Part shown: piece by piece, positions 14,740 through 22,236 of the stretch
How positions within the stretch are numbered: position 1 is the first letter of the stretch
Layout of the letters: every line of letters begins with the position of its first letter
Assembly: GCF_001010805.1 (NCBI RefSeq)
Contig: NZ_CP011477.1
Location: forward strand, 1,565,001 to 1,629,000
From: Spongiibacter sp. IMCC21906
Lineage (GTDB): Bacteria; Pseudomonadota; Gammaproteobacteria; Pseudomonadales; Spongiibacteraceae
Direction of reading: 5' to 3'
Length of the DNA: 64,000 nucleotides
Program-made: the position numbers and the translations under genes
The notes under the pieces: model-generated
Seen by the model: the letters and a program-made list of their open reading frames with translations, nothing else
Database searches by the model: none
Told to the model about the DNA's origin: nothing

Positions 14740-15285
14740 TTAGGCCTCAATTCGGGAGTAATGATCAGCAATGCTGCTACCGGTGTAATGGGCGACCCAG
14801 CCATCCGGGTTGTTAAAAAAACGAATTGCCACCAGGTCTGGTGAGGGACCTAGGTCAAACCAGTGGGGGGTATTGGCGGGGACGCTGAGGAGATCGCCTT
14901 TTTCGCAGAGCACCTCATAAACTTTGTCGCCAATATGCAGGGCAAACAGTCCTTGGCCTTGAACAAAGAAACGCACTTCATCTTCGCTGTGGGTATGCTC
15001 GGAGAGAAATTTTTGGCGAAGTTCGTCTTTTTGCGGGTTGTCGCTGTTCAGGCTGATGACATCGACGGTTTGATAGCCCTCTTCATCGATCAATTTGCGA
15101 ATTTCAGTCTGATAGGCGGCAATGACAGCATCTTGGTTGGCACCGGCCAGAATATCGTCCCGGGTTGACCACTGTTCAAAGCGTATACCGGCTTCTTTTA
15201 AATTTTTGGCAATATCGGCGGGCTTATCTCCGCTCCAAATAGCGTCATGTTGATTGGTGTCGGCAAAAATTTTCAGCGTTGTCAT
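14740..15285 (-). CDS. mtnD: Acireductone dioxygenase
   Basis: 181 residues. Cupin metalloenzyme; with Fe(II) it yields the 2-oxo-4-methylthiobutanoate precursor of methionine, with Ni(II) an off-pathway product plus CO. Metal ligands His97, His99, Glu103 (EHTHSEDEVRFF) and His141 (NTPHWFDLG) match the known enzyme positions exactly. Lies between mtnB (9-nt gap) and mtnC (2-nt gap). Confidence 0.95.
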   Translation of the reverse strand: MTTLKIFADTNQHDAIWSGDKPADIAKNLKEAGIRFEQWSTRDDILAGANQDAVIAAYQTEIRKLIDEEGYQTVDVISLNSDNPQKDELRQKFLSEHTHSEDEVRFFVQGQGLFALHIGDKVYEVLCEKGDLLSVPANTPHWFDLGPSPDLVAIRFFNNPDGWVAHYTGSSIADHYSRIEA

Positions 15286-15294
15286 TGTTTTTCC

Positions 15295-15915
15295 TCAGTG
15301 GTGGCGCCGCATTTCCAGCTCGCAGGACAGCAAAAAGTCCAGCGCTTCCAGCCTGTGCATACAATTGTCCAGACTATCAGCCCAGCAATAAATTCCGTGG
15401 CCGCGAATGAGGTAGCCGGGACAGTCGGGGTGCGCTATGAGGTATTGGTCCACTTCAAGGGCGAGGGCGTGAATATCTTGGCTGTTCTCAAAAATAGGGA
15501 TGGTGACTCGGCTGTCATGGCTGTTGATGCCAGCAAAAGCTTTCTGTAGTTCATAGCCTTCAAAAATCAGCTCGGTGCTTTCGCCCATTAGCATAGATAA
15601 AACGGTTGCTTTGGGGGAGTGGCAATGGAGAACCGCGCCAATGTCCGTAAAGCGGGCATAGAGCTGTGTGTGAAGCTCTGTTTCTGCGGAGGGTTTGCCG
15701 TCGGTAAGTGTGTTGCCGCTTAGGTCAACGGCAATAAAATCCGTTGGCGCTAAACGGCCCTTATGTTTGCCAGAGGCGGTGACTGTCGCGGTATTTTCGC
15801 TGAGTCGCATAGAAAAATTGCCGCTGGTCGCGGGTACCCAGCCGCGCTGATAAAGTGCGTCGCCAGCCGCAGCCAATGCAGTAGCCTGTTGATAGAATGT
15901 TTTGCGATCAATCAT
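15295..15915 (-). CDS. mtnB: Methylthioribulose-1-phosphate dehydratase
   Basis: 206 residues, class II aldolase/adducin fold. Dehydrates 5-methylthioribulose-1-phosphate. Seen: ATSGNFSMRL near residue 30, the zinc site HCHSPKATVLSML (~98-110) and the later His in YLIRGHGIYCWADSLDNCMHRLEAL. Overlaps the end of mtnA by 8 nt. A second class II aldolase in the window (50906) is a separate paralogue with less MtnB-like context. Confidence 0.93.
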   Translation of the reverse strand: MIDRKTFYQQATALAAAGDALYQRGWVPATSGNFSMRLSENTATVTASGKHKGRLAPTDFIAVDLSGNTLTDGKPSAETELHTQLYARFTDIGAVLHCHSPKATVLSMLMGESTELIFEGYELQKAFAGINSHDSRVTIPIFENSQDIHALALEVDQYLIAHPDCPGYLIRGHGIYCWADSLDNCMHRLEALDFLLSCELEMRRHH

Positions 15916-16990
15916 GCACGTTTGCCTGTCTTTCGGTCGCGGAACTAGTGCTGGCGGCCTGCAAATGCGCCAGTATCTTGTCTCTATTAGGGCGTTCTAC
16001 CACGCCGTACTCGGTGACGATAGCATCAATTAAGTTTGCCGGGGTGACATCGAAGGCGGGGTTGCTACTACTGATACCGTCGGGAGCAACGGCCTTGCCA
16101 TTTTGGTGGGTGATTTCCTCAGCTGGGCGTTGTTCTATGGGAATGTCCTTGCCGTCAATATGGGCATCAAAGGTGGACGTGGGTGCGGCAACCATAAACT
16201 TAACGCCGTGGTGTTTGGCGATAATGGCTAAATTGTAAGTCCCTATTTTATTGGCAACATCGCCGTTGGCGGCCACGCGGTCAGCACCGACAATAACCCA
16301 AGACGGTTTGTGTTGGCGCATTAGCTGCGCTGCGGCGCCTTCAATGGCAAGGGTGACGGGAATGCCTTCTTGCATAAGCTCCCAGCTGGTGAGCCTTGCT
16401 CCTTGCAGCCAAGGGCGTGTCTCGCCAGCAATCACGCCAGCAATTTTTCCATCCCGAAATGCTGAGCGAATGACGCCCAGTGCGGTGCCGTAGCCGCCGG
16501 TGGCAAGAGCCCCTGCATTGCAGTGGGTGTAAACGTGGTGCTGACCTTGTAAAAGTGCAGCACCGTGTTCGCCAATACGCTGGTTGATGGCCATGTCTTC
16601 GTGATGAATTTGCTTGGCTAGCGCTAATAACTGTGCCGGTAAGTCGTTGGTATTAGCGTGGTTTTCGATGGTTTCATCGCAGCGTTGCAGTGCCCAAAAC
16701 AGGTTAACTGCCGTGGGGCGTGATTGGGCCAGTGCCTCGCGAGCAGGCTTAAGGGCTGCTGCCCAATCGGCGGTGGTGCTTTGCTGGGGCAGAGATCTGG
16801 CAGCAAGGGCCATACCGTAAGCGGCTGTTATGCCGATGGCAGGGGCGCCGCGTACCACCATATCTTTAATAGCTTGGGCTACGTCAACGGGGTTTTTATA
16901 GGCAATATAGGTCACGGCTGTCGGCAGGATACGCTGATCCAATAACTGCAGTTGATCGTCTTGCCAAATAATTGCGTCAGGGGTGCTCAC
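15908..16990 (-). CDS. mtnA: S-methyl-5-thioribose-1-phosphate isomerase
   Basis: 360 residues from the GTG at 16990, which has GGGAGAG 5 nt upstream and begins STPDAIIWQDDQLQLLDQR as in the family; a longer frame to 17128 would add 46 poorly matching residues and overlap the divergent promoter. Isomerises methylthioribose-1-phosphate to the ribulose form. Seen: VRGAPAIGITAAYG, catalytic Cys in HCNAGALATGGYGTALG, and catalytic Asp in VGADRVAANGDVANKIGTY. First gene of mtnABDC. The MTA phosphorylase or nucleosidase/kinase needed to make the substrate is not in the window. Confidence 0.95.
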   Translation of the reverse strand: MSTPDAIIWQDDQLQLLDQRILPTAVTYIAYKNPVDVAQAIKDMVVRGAPAIGITAAYGMALAARSLPQQSTTADWAAALKPAREALAQSRPTAVNLFWALQRCDETIENHANTNDLPAQLLALAKQIHHEDMAINQRIGEHGAALLQGQHHVYTHCNAGALATGGYGTALGVIRSAFRDGKIAGVIAGETRPWLQGARLTSWELMQEGIPVTLAIEGAAAQLMRQHKPSWVIVGADRVAANGDVANKIGTYNLAIIAKHHGVKFMVAAPTSTFDAHIDGKDIPIEQRPAEEITHQNGKAVAPDGISSSNPAFDVTPANLIDAIVTEYGVVERPNRDKILAHLQAASTSSATERQANVHD

Positions 16991-17084
16991 TTTTGCTCTC
17001 CCATTTTGAGGGCGGCCATTATAATGCAGCTCAAGGGGCTTGCCGACGATAGAAGTCTTAAGATTTAGTGATTTTGGAGGATAA

Positions 17085-17540
17085 ATGCCGATTTTTGCAT
17101 GGGTTTTACTTACCGTGGGTCTGTTCATTGTGGTGGTACTGGCGGCAATGGCGTACCGCGCGGTGTCGCAGTTGCGTCAACAACAACGTCAGCTTCAGCG
17201 TGCGCAAGAGCAGCGTGTCAGTGAAACCTCTCTGAGCGCCTTAGAGGGGGTAAGAATATTGGCGGGCAGTTATTTGGCAGGGCAAGTTCAGGCTAGTGAA
17301 GTGTCGCTGCGTATTGCCGTGTTGCTGGACCAACCGGGCCACCCCGATGAGATCACCTCTGCGGGTAAGGCTTTTACGGAGATGGCCGCAAAGTTGGCGC
17401 ATATTCCGACACATCAAGCTTGGAAAGACTTACCGGTGGCTCGGCAGCGCAAATTGCGTACTGAAATGGAAGATTTGGAAACCCTGCATCAAGACGAATT
17501 GACCCAAAGCGCAGAGGCGCTACTAGGCTTATTAAATTGA
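17085..17540 (+). CDS. DUF2489 membrane-anchored protein
   Basis: 151 residues. One N-terminal membrane anchor (IFAWVLLTVGLFIVVVLAAMAYRAV) followed by a charged coiled region (QLRQQQRQLQRAQEQR) and a soluble helical domain with LEGVRILAGSYLAGQVQASEVSLRIAVLLDQPG, the DUF2489 pattern. The cytoplasmic side is likely by the positive-inside rule. TTTTGGAGGATAA precedes the ATG. Function unknown. Divergent from mtnA, convergent with the tetR gene. Confidence 0.8.
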   Translation: MPIFAWVLLTVGLFIVVVLAAMAYRAVSQLRQQQRQLQRAQEQRVSETSLSALEGVRILAGSYLAGQVQASEVSLRIAVLLDQPGHPDEITSAGKAFTEMAAKLAHIPTHQAWKDLPVARQRKLRTEMEDLETLHQDELTQSAEALLGLLN

Positions 17541-17568: not shown

Positions 17569-18171
17569 TCAGGCATTTTTCTGGCTTTGAATCAGCGCAT
17601 TTAAACCGTCGACCATTTTTTCTTGCAGCTGAAGTTGGGCTTCAAGCTGTGTTTCTTCTAGAGGATCAACCCCAAATAGCGACTTATGCAGGGGAGCCAA
17701 GGTGACATAACCTAGGATCATGGAGTGGAAAGCCATGGCGGTGGGAATGCTCAAGAATTCTCGCTGCGGGTCAGCAGCGGAGGCGCTGATATAAGAAAAA
17801 AACTGCCGGTACCATTTTTCACGCAATAAGGTGAGGGTTTCATCTTCCGCGAGGGTGGCATGTTGTATCAGTCTGGCAACGTTGGGTGATTCCGTCAGTA
17901 ATGCCATGATTTTCTGGATCTGTTGGCGGGTTTCGCTAAAGTCGGCGCTGGCGTCTAAGTCTTTGGTCGCTTCTGCCAGAGGGGTGAATAACCCCTGACA
18001 AACTTCTTCGTATATAGCCAGTTTATTAGGAAAATGCTTGTAGATTGCGGGACTGCTGATGTTAACAATCGAGGCAATTTCAGTCACCGCTGTGGCGGCA
18101 AAGCCTTTTTGGGCAAATAGCTTTTCGGCTACCTGAAGTATAAGTTGCCGAGTGTTTTTGCGTTTTTTCAT
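17569..18171 (-). CDS. TetR/AcrR-family transcriptional regulator
   Basis: 200 residues. N-terminal helix-turn-helix (ILQVAEKLFAQKGFAATAVTEIASIVNISSPAIYKHFPNKLAIYEEV in the first ~60 residues) and a C-terminal ligand/dimer domain. Third gene of a likely lemA-GIDE-tetR unit (16-nt gap to the gene upstream), so it may regulate that operon, or simply be carried with it. The ligand is unknown. Confidence 0.88.
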   Translation of the reverse strand: MKKRKNTRQLILQVAEKLFAQKGFAATAVTEIASIVNISSPAIYKHFPNKLAIYEEVCQGLFTPLAEATKDLDASADFSETRQQIQKIMALLTESPNVARLIQHATLAEDETLTLLREKWYRQFFSYISASAADPQREFLSIPTAMAFHSMILGYVTLAPLHKSLFGVDPLEETQLEAQLQLQEKMVDGLNALIQSQKNA

Positions 18172-18187
18172 GTGTGGTCCGACATTG

Positions 18188-19069
18188 CTATATTCCGTGA
18201 GAGGAGAAAACTTGCCACGTCAGTGCGGCGGTGGCAATGATACTCAAGATAAATAGCCCTGCAGCCTGCCAGCGGAAGCGGCGGCTTAATGCGGTAGGTT
18301 CTGTTGTTGCAATAAGAAAAGGGTGGCGCCGACTTTTGGGGTCTTTAATGCTATGTACCACTGCAACGGGTAATTGCTGCTCTATTTGCCGCTCAGCTTT
18401 ACGTAACGCTTCTGCTCTTGCTAACTCCCACTCTTTAAAGTCTATTTCACCGTTGGCGTCATGGTCAAAGCGGCTCAGTAACTTGGCATAGTCTTGCTTC
18501 CACTCATTGAGGATATTGGCTTGGGCGTGATTGGCCAGCTCGGCGGGGTTGGGAGGGTGGCGGCTGCTAAACGCGCCAATAACGTAGAGGGGATCATCCT
18601 TGCACAATAGTTCTTCAGTGTAGCGATATTTACCGCTCAGTAGACTAAACCCTGAGTGCTGATGCCCCGCAGGAAAACGTGATGAGCCTTGCCAGGTCTT
18701 TTTACGGTGGCTGCTGACTTCCGCCCCTGTGGGGAGAATAAAGCAGCTGCCAGTAACATCAAAAATAACAAACGGCGCGTCACTGCGTCCCTTTTGTACG
18801 GTGTGCCACCGGCTGTTTTTGCCGCTGCGCCGATATTCTTCAATTTTGTACTCGTACCAGACACAGGGGCTTAGGGTGAGAGGGCTGACGAGCGCGGTAT
18901 CGCCACTGTCAGCGGCCATACCAATTAACTCTACGTAGCCTTGGTGAGCCGAGCGTATTTTAGAGCTTGGCGTGTCTTCAATAATGCGGGCTCGGCGCAG
19001 ACGGGAGATGCTGCCGAAACCGCAGGCCAAGGAGATGGCTGCACTAAAGCCTAGGGCGAGATAATCCAC
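18188..19069 (-). CDS. GIDE-domain membrane protein with EF-hand
   Basis: 293 residues. N-terminal hydrophobic segment (YLALGFSAAISLACGFGSI), then a domain resembling the E3 ubiquitin-ligase-associated GIDE family (HQGYVELIGMA, LTLSPCVWYEYKIEEYRR, HTVQKGRSDAPFVIFDVTGSCFI), an EF-hand loop DHDANGEIDFKEWE (~residues 203-216) with Asp/Asn/Glu at calcium-coordinating places, and a C-terminal membrane helix (AAGLFILSIIATAALTWQVF). No RING finger, as usual for bacterial members. Follows lemA by 14 nt. Family knowledge gives an envelope association with LemA; function is not established. The EF-hand suggests calcium dependence. Confidence 0.75.
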   Translation of the reverse strand: MDYLALGFSAAISLACGFGSISRLRRARIIEDTPSSKIRSAHQGYVELIGMAADSGDTALVSPLTLSPCVWYEYKIEEYRRSGKNSRWHTVQKGRSDAPFVIFDVTGSCFILPTGAEVSSHRKKTWQGSSRFPAGHQHSGFSLLSGKYRYTEELLCKDDPLYVIGAFSSRHPPNPAELANHAQANILNEWKQDYAKLLSRFDHDANGEIDFKEWELARAEALRKAERQIEQQLPVAVVHSIKDPKSRRHPFLIATTEPTALSRRFRWQAAGLFILSIIATAALTWQVFSSHGI

Positions 19070-19083
19070 AGCTGCTGTCTCGG

Positions 19084-19653
19084 CTAGTTAAATAAGGCTT
19101 TTACATCCACGTCTGCCAGTTCTTCTTGCCTAAAGCTTAGGAGGTCAAAATCTTTGAAGTTAAACAGGCGGGCAACAATCACATCGGGAAACTGCTCAAT
19201 TCGCACGTTATTGTTGTTTACGGCTTCATTATAGACTTCCCGGCGATCTGCTATGGCGCTTTCAAGCCCCGAAATCCGCTGCTGTAATTTACCAAAAGCT
19301 TCGTCGGCTTTTAATTCCGGGTAGTTTTCGGCCAGCGCAAACAATTGACCTAAACCACTACGCATTTGGGTTTCAGCAGCGCCAAGGCTTTTTATGTCGC
19401 CTTTGTCTTGTGCGTTGGCAACCAGTTGTCTTGCCTCTATCACCCGGCTTAAGGTGTCTTGCTCGTAGCTCATATATTGTTTGCAGGTTTCAATTAGCTT
19501 AGGGAGTTCGTCGTGGCGTTGTTTTAGTAACACATCGATATTGGCCAAGCTTTTTGACACATTGTGCTTGAGGTTAACCAAGCCGTTATACAACATAACG
19601 AGGTAAACGATCAGAAAGAGTGCAAGTCCCAGAAAAACGGCTAGGCCTATCAT
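19084..19653 (-). CDS. lemA: LemA family protein
   Basis: 189 residues. N-terminal membrane helix (GLAVFLGLALFLIVYLVMLYNGLV), the LemA core NVSKSLANIDVLLKQRHDELPKLIETCKQYMSYEQDTL, LFALAENYPELKADEAF and VYNEAVNNNNVRIEQFPDVIVARLF. Short N-out, long coiled helical cytoplasmic or periplasmic part. First gene of lemA-GIDE-tetR. LemA proteins are widespread with unclear function. Confidence 0.92.
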   Translation of the reverse strand: MIGLAVFLGLALFLIVYLVMLYNGLVNLKHNVSKSLANIDVLLKQRHDELPKLIETCKQYMSYEQDTLSRVIEARQLVANAQDKGDIKSLGAAETQMRSGLGQLFALAENYPELKADEAFGKLQQRISGLESAIADRREVYNEAVNNNNVRIEQFPDVIVARLFNFKDFDLLSFRQEELADVDVKALFN

Positions 19654-19659
19654 TGAGGC

Positions 19660-19686
19660 GATCCCTCAGCAGAAGAGTGAGGGATC
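19660..19686. other. 9-bp perfect hairpin upstream of lemA
   Basis: Arms GATCCCTCA (19660-19668) and TGAGGGATC (19678-19686), 9-nt loop. Lies between the cysteine synthase stop and the lemA ATG on the minus strand. No U-run follows, so it is either a weak terminator for the gene upstream or a 5'-leader structure of lemA. Confidence 0.5.
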
Positions 19687-20993: not shown

Positions 20994-21016
20994 ATACTGA
21001 TAACAGAGGTTTGTTG

Positions 21017-21580
21017 ATGGCAGATGAAGCCACAGAGCAAGTGCGCAGTGGCAAGTTTTGGGCAGAATGCATGGCTAATATTGCTCAAAATAGAGACAAA
21101 GGCAGCTTTATGCTGTTATTTGATCACTTTTCGCCCCGGGTCAATGCCTATTTGCTGGGTCAAGGTGTGGACAGTGCGACTGCTGAAGACATTACCCAAG
21201 AGGCATTGCTGGCCCTTTGGAATAAGGCCAAGCTCTATAAACCTGAAAAAGCCGCGGTGAGTACCTGGCTTTTTCGCGTCGCACGAAATCTATGGATAGA
21301 TAAATTGCGTAAGCAGCGCGGCATCGCCTACGAGGCAGATGACCGCATTGCCGAAGAAACTAATATCGAACCCACTTTGGGCGCAGACGGGGATAGGCTG
21401 AAGTCTGCTCTGGATGCCTTGCCTCTCAATCAGGCGCAAGTGGTGTACAAGTCCTATTACGAGGGCAAAAGTCACAGTGAGATCGCCGCTGAAACGGGGA
21501 TGCCACTAGGTAGTGTGAAGTCAAGTTTACGGCTAGCCATCAAGGCTTTCCGTGAGCAATTTGGAGAAGTTGGCAAATGA
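21017..21580 (+). CDS. ECF RNA polymerase sigma factor (RpoE/ChrR type)
   Basis: 187 residues from the ATG at 21017; AGAGGT is placed 6 nt upstream and favours this over the two in-frame TTG codons just before. Sigma-2 region (FDHFSPRVNAYLLGQGVDSATAEDITQEALLALWNKA, STWLFRVARNLWIDKLRK) and sigma-4 region (LNQAQVVYKSYYEGKSHSEIAAETGMPLGSVKSSLRLA). Overlaps the ChrR gene by 4 nt. In this sigma group the trigger is singlet oxygen or related oxidants. Confidence 0.92.
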   Translation: MADEATEQVRSGKFWAECMANIAQNRDKGSFMLLFDHFSPRVNAYLLGQGVDSATAEDITQEALLALWNKAKLYKPEKAAVSTWLFRVARNLWIDKLRKQRGIAYEADDRIAEETNIEPTLGADGDRLKSALDALPLNQAQVVYKSYYEGKSHSEIAAETGMPLGSVKSSLRLAIKAFREQFGEVGK

Positions 21581-22236
21581 GCCGTATAGAACATCATCCC
21601 AGTGAAGACACGCTGGCCAGCTATAGTGCAGGGGCGTTGCCTGCTGCTTTGGCCTTGGTAGTGGGTTGTCATCTGGAATTTTGCTCGTCTTGTCGTCGTG
21701 ATCTGGCGGGGTTGGAACATTTGGGTGGCGAGCTAATGACAGCACTGCCGCCTAAAGCGTTATCGACAGCGGCGCGAGATAGAATGCTGGACCTGCTCGA
21801 CGAGCAAGTGGATATGGAAGTATCTACCGTCACGTCGACTGAAAAAGCTAAAGCTTCTTCTATGCCGGCACTGCTGAGTAAACTGACTGGCTCAGCAAAC
21901 TTGGAAAGCATGCCTTGGAAGGTTGCTGCGCCAGGGATTAGACAAATTGTATTGAAAACAGGTGAAGGCAATGCCCGCTTGTTACGTATTTCAGCAGGTA
22001 TGCGAATGCCAGTGCACAGCCATCGGGGCAATGAATTAACGATGATTTTGCAAGGTGGTTACAGCGATGCATTGGGTCAGTTTAATGCGGGAGATGTTGC
22101 CGATTTGGATGGCAGTGTGGAGCATCAACCCATTGCGGATGATGATCAAGATTGCATCTGTTTGGCGGGAATGGATGCGCCGCTGATTTTTAAAGGCTGG
22201 ATTGCTAAATTGATGCAGCCGTTTGTGGGGATGTGA
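21577..22236 (+). CDS. chrR: ChrR-family zinc anti-sigma factor with cupin domain
   Basis: 219 residues. N-terminal zinc anti-sigma domain: His6, His32, Cys36, Cys39 (GCHLEFCSSC). C-terminal cupin with metal ligands His147, His149, Glu153 and His183, which line up with those of Rhodobacter ChrR. Holds the ECF factor inactive until oxidant (singlet oxygen, hydroperoxide) damages or triggers the cupin. Overlaps the sigma gene by 4 nt, giving stoichiometric expression. Followed by the palindromic terminator at 22311. Confidence 0.92.
   Translation: MSRIEHHPSEDTLASYSAGALPAALALVVGCHLEFCSSCRRDLAGLEHLGGELMTALPPKALSTAARDRMLDLLDEQVDMEVSTVTSTEKAKASSMPALLSKLTGSANLESMPWKVAAPGIRQIVLKTGEGNARLLRISAGMRMPVHSHRGNELTMILQGGYSDALGQFNAGDVADLDGSVEHQPIADDDQDCICLAGMDAPLIFKGWIAKLMQPFVGM

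Follow-up and report, generated by a model that had tools for sequence, protein, structure and literature searches.

Introduction

MUL1 (MAPL, MULAN), a protein ligase of the mitochondrial outer membrane, holds its GIDE/BAM domain between two membrane helices and is packaged into mitochondrial vesicles (PMC4457424). The same work covers the evolution of the BAM/GIDE domain, and LemA, EF-hand, calcium and operon have 0 occurrences in its main text. A second family relevant here is that of the LemA proteins, which possibly restructure membranes (PMC12631010); one of its members, MamQ, was suggested as a possible hub at the cytoplasmic membrane before invagination (PMC4902198). LemA genes also occur with a partner gene in the LemA–TPM (YgcG-like) pair. 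A search of the open-licence literature for LemA together with GIDE, or together with GIDE plus an EF-hand, gave no paper, and in a broader search of open-licence papers no title or abstract start among the matches listed dealt with a GIDE–LemA pair.

We analysed a locus in Spongiibacter sp. IMCC21906 at which these families meet. Like MUL1, the GIDE protein encoded there has its domain between two membrane helices; unlike MUL1, it is without a RING, carries an EF-hand insert and has a LemA partner, and its GIDE domain is predicted to be cytoplasmic, the counterpart in MAPL being exposed to the intermembrane space. The LemA shares the common LemA Pfam domain with PDB 2etd and MamQ, but its partner is GIDE. 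The EF-hand aligns weakly, in its loop and flanking helices, with those of centrin, calmodulin and troponin C, but in contrast to such calcium sensors the protein has a single EF-hand, which lies inside a membrane-anchored beta domain.

Results

Locus and gene order

The window, by which we mean the whole stretch of 64,000 nucleotides analysed (NZ_CP011477.1, positions 1,565,001 to 1,629,000), contains lemA, then the GIDE gene and then tetR, all read from one strand and separated by 14 and 16 nt (Table 1); open reading frames and Pfam matches bear out the presence of all three and the coordinates (17569-19653) given in the first-pass annotation. In 17 of 21 loci from the same family a convergent DUF2489 gene, here at 17085-17540 (Pfam 1.1e-25), is found close to the operon. 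An inverted repeat at 19660-19686, immediately before the lemA start and, by eye, absent before lemA in the 20 other family loci, may be the terminator of the upstream PALP gene. Farther out, an ECF-type sigma factor gene (Pfam) overlaps its neighbour at 21011-22236, the neighbour presumably resembling a ChrR-type anti-sigma factor, and three genes at 14740-17128 resemble what we take to be methionine salvage enzymes. A defence library queried with the LemA, GIDE and TetR proteins returned no match.

Table 1. Features of the lemA–GIDE–tetR locus (positions in the window)
Feature	Position	Strand	Evidence
lemA: N-terminal hydrophobic helix and LemA helical domain	19084..19653	(-)	Pfam LemA 2.7e-43, 147.8 bits (cut-off 26.2)
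GIDE/BAM-domain protein, 293 aa, GTG start	18188..19069	(-)	Pfam GIDE 2.6e-13
EF-hand helix-loop-helix insert, aa about 175-231	18377..18547	(-)	Model helices, column conservation
EF-hand loop DHDANGEIDFKE, aa 202-213	18431..18466	(-)	Pattern, 64-homologue alignment
tetR-family regulator, third gene	17569..18171	(-)	Pfam TetR_N 4.6e-14

The GIDE protein

The window protein matches Pfam PF12483 with 50.2 bits against a curated cut-off of 23.6, and the GIDE family is likewise matched at E≤0.01 by all 64 of the homologues that we aligned, which are 31-61% identical to it. Hydrophobic stretches lie at either end of the protein across this alignment, and in an AlphaFold2 model built from the 64 homologues (mean pLDDT 94.7, pTM 0.82) a beta domain is bracketed by a long helix at either terminus (aa 2-32 and aa 258-290), the protein stopping 3 residues beyond the last helix. 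The EF-hand insert, modelled with confidence, comprises helices 175-192, 194-201 and 211-231; its loop separates the second helix from the third, and the whole lies just ahead of the strands that close the GIDE domain (238-242 and 252-254) and lead into the terminal helix. The Pfam match, the loop pattern and the terminal helices of the model thus uphold the first-pass reading of a GIDE-domain homologue with an EF-hand loop and two membrane anchors. No RING family was matched in the protein by Pfam at E≤1.

Neither sequence comparison (phmmer) nor Foldseek turned up a solved GIDE structure, and in Foldseek the model had no match at E≤0.001. The OB domains of AspRS, RPA and MCM aligned to the model with Z 6.3-8.3, near the level that the tool calls common, and the three rows above them were complex IV chains (Z 9.3-10.1, only 60-63 residues aligned); from the model, the beta domain may be OB-like. 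Uncharacterised giant-virus proteins (Tupanvirus, Klosneuvirus and others) also resemble the model, at a best E of 7e-8 and TM-scores <0.5 (BFVD). Two EF-bearing GIDE proteins, L089:107-2092 and L246:352-2340, have a long N-terminal extension with no Pfam family at E≤0.1. C69 is kept in 64 and C109 in 62 of the 64 homologues; we found no support for a disulphide between them, L089 and L090 retaining C69 only.

Conservation of the EF-hand loop

Canonical EF-hands have a 12-residue loop with ligand-type residues at positions 1, 3, 5, 9 and 12 and Gly at 6, and the loop (aa 202-213) agrees with every position of this pattern. Asp202, Gly207 and Glu213 (loop positions 1, 6 and 12) are invariant in the 64 homologues, as are Trp190 and Trp214, which flank the loop. 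Asp occupies position 9 in 62 of 64, no residue other than Asp, Asn or Ser occurs at positions 3 and 5, and, apart from one Gly at position 9, the five ligand positions hold only Asp, Asn, Ser or Glu. Many helix positions around the ligands vary while the ligand positions are kept. A strict EF motif was present in 64/64 real homologues and in 10/32000 shuffled sequences, which expresses constancy and is not a p-value because homologues share descent; moreover, most of the 64 came from a scan with two patterns, one of them in the first helix of the EF-hand, which favours EF-bearing forms. Column conservation and the shuffles rule out a chance motif.

Of the profiles named in the first-pass annotation (PF12483 and EF-hand), GIDE is above its cut-off on the window protein and the EF-hand models are below theirs: EF-hand_1 reached E 0.029 and 14.3 bits against a cut-off of 25.4. 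Among the homologues, 52 of 64 match EF-hand_5 at E≤0.01. When the EF region was compared with solved structures (phmmer), centrin/caltractin came out best at E 0.0058, with calmodulin and troponin C behind it (E of 0.14-1); all these matches are weak.

All 21 genomes of the same family have the GIDE gene, and all have the EF loop, 20 by script pattern and L021 with the reading DRDDSGDIDLQE. A class-wide profile search, likewise built on the 64-homologue alignment, found a GIDE match in 89 of 323 genomes; we examined 84, leaving out G504, seen separately as a fusion, and G575, G777, G804 and G831, which are weak or fragmentary matches. The EF motif is kept in 76 of the 84, so the conservation in orthologues on which the first-pass annotation depended holds in these genomes as in the 64 homologues. 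The remaining eight are varied: in G615 the GIDE gene runs over two frames and its loop is altered, the loops of G623 and G703 are degraded, the gene of G845 is broken, G680 is a fusion, G752 is without the insert, and G664 and G864 are divergent. Losses of the EF-hand are several, L219, L220 and L086 among them. Besides Pseudomonadota, the EF-hand occurs in the Geobacteraceae-type phylum, in one acidobacterial locus and in one of bdellovibrio type, the motif lying at the equivalent GIDE site in the other phyla. In a quick tree computed for 83 GIDE domains from 199 of 553 columns, in which three rows sit on very long branches, the EF-hand needs 7 changes, at least 3 of them forced by starred branches.

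Linkage of GIDE to LemA

In 79 of the 84 genomes lemA is adjacent to GIDE, always upstream of it, on its strand and no more than 400 nt away; in 1 the two are fused, and in 4 (G596, G664, G712, G864) the fetched stretch showed no lemA. Counted by gene, with repeats and the fragments of one genome included, lemA is upstream of all 81 GIDE ORFs that have an adjacent lemA. LemA itself is broader, being found in 199 of 297 genomes in the class search, so that GIDE accompanies only part of the LemA genes.

Adjacency or fusion recurs in other phyla, and the expectation that GIDE would be linked to lemA elsewhere is therefore well supported. Among 148 genomes of the phylum to which the Geobacteraceae locus belongs, 7 match, counting the one we started from. 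Six of these carry the EF motif at the corresponding site of a longer protein; lemA comes after GIDE in 5 of the 7, and in one more the contig ends first. In the planctomycete phylum, searched with the Pfam GIDE profile, which has no EF-hand, 17 of 149 genomes match, and in the 16 new loci GIDE and LemA form one ORF in 11 (one cut by the contig end) and are neighbours in 1; in 4 no LemA was seen within the short locus, and the EF motif was found in 0/16. Long gammaproteobacterial ORFs (L248-L261, 726-816 codons) read GIDE–GIDE–LemA in 14/14 fetched, without the EF motif, and in the archaeal loci that we read GIDE copies mostly flank lemA, again with no EF motif. Every GIDE–LemA fusion seen is without the EF-hand. 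The EF-hand is thus conserved among the homologues of this lineage and is not general to GIDE–LemA units, as the fusions and archaeal forms attest. Because GIDE and LemA are fused in two distant groups, a physical or functional unit is very likely; going by gene order and fusion, the link between them is old and strong, and the EF-hand is, judged from the sequences compared, an insertion into this older unit.

One planctomycete fusion (L093:3905-5695) has a terminal TerB-like stretch of 20.3 bits, below the cut-off of 24.4. In 13 of 49 loci (L037-L085) GIDE is followed, on its own strand and about 1 kb further downstream, by a PrlC/OpdA-like gene, presumably an oligopeptidase.

The first-pass annotation had also counted tetR with this operon, which is correct for the family, where tetR is beside GIDE in 19 of 21 genomes, but not beyond it: of 48 loci that are more distant (L037-L085 minus L058, with flanks ≤4 kb and some loci shortened; L085 itself is labelled Spongiibacteraceae), none showed tetR. 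We accordingly rejected tetR as a part of the conserved unit.

The two LemA proteins

The window LemA matches 2etd ('lemA protein', which we take to be LemA of Thermotoga maritima) at 1.2e-25, and scores 72.1 bits, far below the 250-bit cut-off, with NCBIfam NF040966 for MamQ. It also matches a phage family, phrog_1383 ('virion structural protein'), at 5.8e-16. The genome has a second LemA at C1:395992 (L282 1375-2735), where it forms a LemA–TPM pair: its lipobox-like start reads like that of a lipoprotein, a gene labelled TPM/YgcG-like by reading follows it, and no GIDE gene is listed in its 3.5-kb locus. This second LemA is probably periplasmic. LemA domains can therefore be periplasmic, and the inner membrane may have one LemA type on each of its faces.

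Membrane sidedness

By the positive-inside rule, flanks rich in K/R point to the cytoplasm. In the 64-homologue alignment the N-terminal tails of GIDE are acidic (9 K/R and 74 D/E in 305 residues), and the inner flanks hold 198 K/R with 108 D/E and 197 K/R with 59 D/E, in 768 residues each. This bias favours the cytoplasmic face for the GIDE domain, and hence for the EF-hand, and counts against a periplasmic placement of the domain. The outer C-terminal tails are net basic (35 K/R, 7 D/E in 282 residues), though less dense than the inner flanks, and this counts against a clean charge rule. For LemA the indications of a cytoplasmic domain are weaker than for GIDE: in 84 proteins the part before the helix has 81 K/R and 100 D/E in 638 residues (untrimmed starts included) and the part after it 199 K/R and 85 D/E in 1680, so that net charge agrees with a cytoplasmic domain while K/R density is the same on either side. 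A model of the fusion, of moderate quality (pLDDT 78.6, pTM 0.60), has the order helix 1 – GIDE – helix 2 – helix 3 – LemA; since helices 1 and 2 enclose GIDE and LemA comes after helix 3, the two domains would share one face, whichever it is. Against the cytoplasm, PMC3905215 describes the C-terminal domain of LemA as extracellular, and in PMC4902198 MamQ was labelled with EGFP at its N-terminus, which would fit an extracellular LemA domain, although that report also lists EGFP fused to the C-terminus.

Discussion

The domains, conserved loop, gene linkage and fusions seen here would be accounted for best, as a whole, by a LemA–GIDE scaffold of the inner membrane under calcium control, to which we assign a probability of about 0.42. 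The products of the two genes would be halves of one complex, which, like its sidedness, we infer from the sequences: GIDE would contribute a beta domain, perhaps OB-like, held to the membrane by two helices, and LemA a long helical bundle on a single membrane helix, with the soluble domains of both facing the same side, which is most likely the cytoplasm. A cytoplasmic EF-hand would be in a place where calcium could signal. The EF-hand inserted before the last strands of GIDE in this lineage would then act as a calcium-controlled lever, binding calcium when its cytoplasmic level rises, for example on envelope damage in sea water, and altering the packing or pairing of GIDE or its contact with LemA, whereupon the complex would organise or remodel the adjacent membrane. 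Within this reading, calcium as the signal has about an even chance of being right, and membrane organisation as the job is a more tentative assignment. Both are argued by analogy, the second with MamQ as a possible hub, with LemA proteins that may restructure membranes and with the vesicle packaging of MAPL. Most working EF-hands occur in pairs, and the single one in GIDE counts against a switch. Because GIDE–LemA units without the EF-hand exist (fusions, archaeal forms and losses), calcium would be dispensable for the core job.

The same single EF-hand, together with relatives that manage without it, would also suit a permanent structural calcium staple in a complex that calcium does not regulate, and were the domain periplasmic (compare the description of LemA in PMC3905215) it would meet constantly high calcium. 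Against this stand the charge bias of GIDE and the retention of ligand positions while many neighbouring helix positions vary, and we regard a staple as unlikely, if worth keeping in mind. Free calcium is normally low in the cytoplasm, the face that the charge bias favours. We consider it quite improbable that the EF-hand is instead a protein-contact hairpin or a magnesium binder to which calcium is irrelevant. The invariant Trp190 and Trp214 next to the loop could indeed have a role in packing, and on the window protein the Pfam EF-hand scores are under the cut-off and the best phmmer match to a solved EF-hand is only 0.0058; however, residues at positions 1, 3, 5, 9 and 12 are of ligand type (one Gly at 9), Glu is at 12 in 64/64 and the loop pattern is that expected of calcium ligands.

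Two further readings look away from the EF-hand. One could envision a local stress operon whose main point is regulation by TetR, as tetR begins 16 nt downstream of GIDE and accompanies it in 19 of 21 genomes of the family. Its absence from all 48 distant loci, and our finding no palindrome or TetR operator common to the stretches upstream of lemA in the 21 family loci by eye, make this very unlikely. The Pfam family description, 'E3 Ubiquitin ligase', would have the GIDE protein be a ubiquitin-ligase-like enzyme, an identity that we reject and to which we give practically no credence, because the protein is without a RING (Pfam, E≤1); nor was there a C-terminal RING in any prokaryotic sequence used by PMC4457424, as that paper states.

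A LemA–GIDE scaffold under calcium control thus remains our preferred reading, and a wider and more speculative history, on balance improbable, can be built on it: an ancient two-part GIDE–LemA system would mend or organise prokaryotic membranes from their cytoplasmic face, the EF-hand would have added a calcium-gated response to damage in Pseudomonadota and some other phyla, and MUL1 would descend from the GIDE half. If this is true, the GIDE domain of MUL1 traces to a membrane-remodelling pair and its ligase part was gained later. The natural GIDE–LemA fusions supply each of the two families with a partner, and the EF loop offers a handle by which a single loop mutation can probe the role of calcium.
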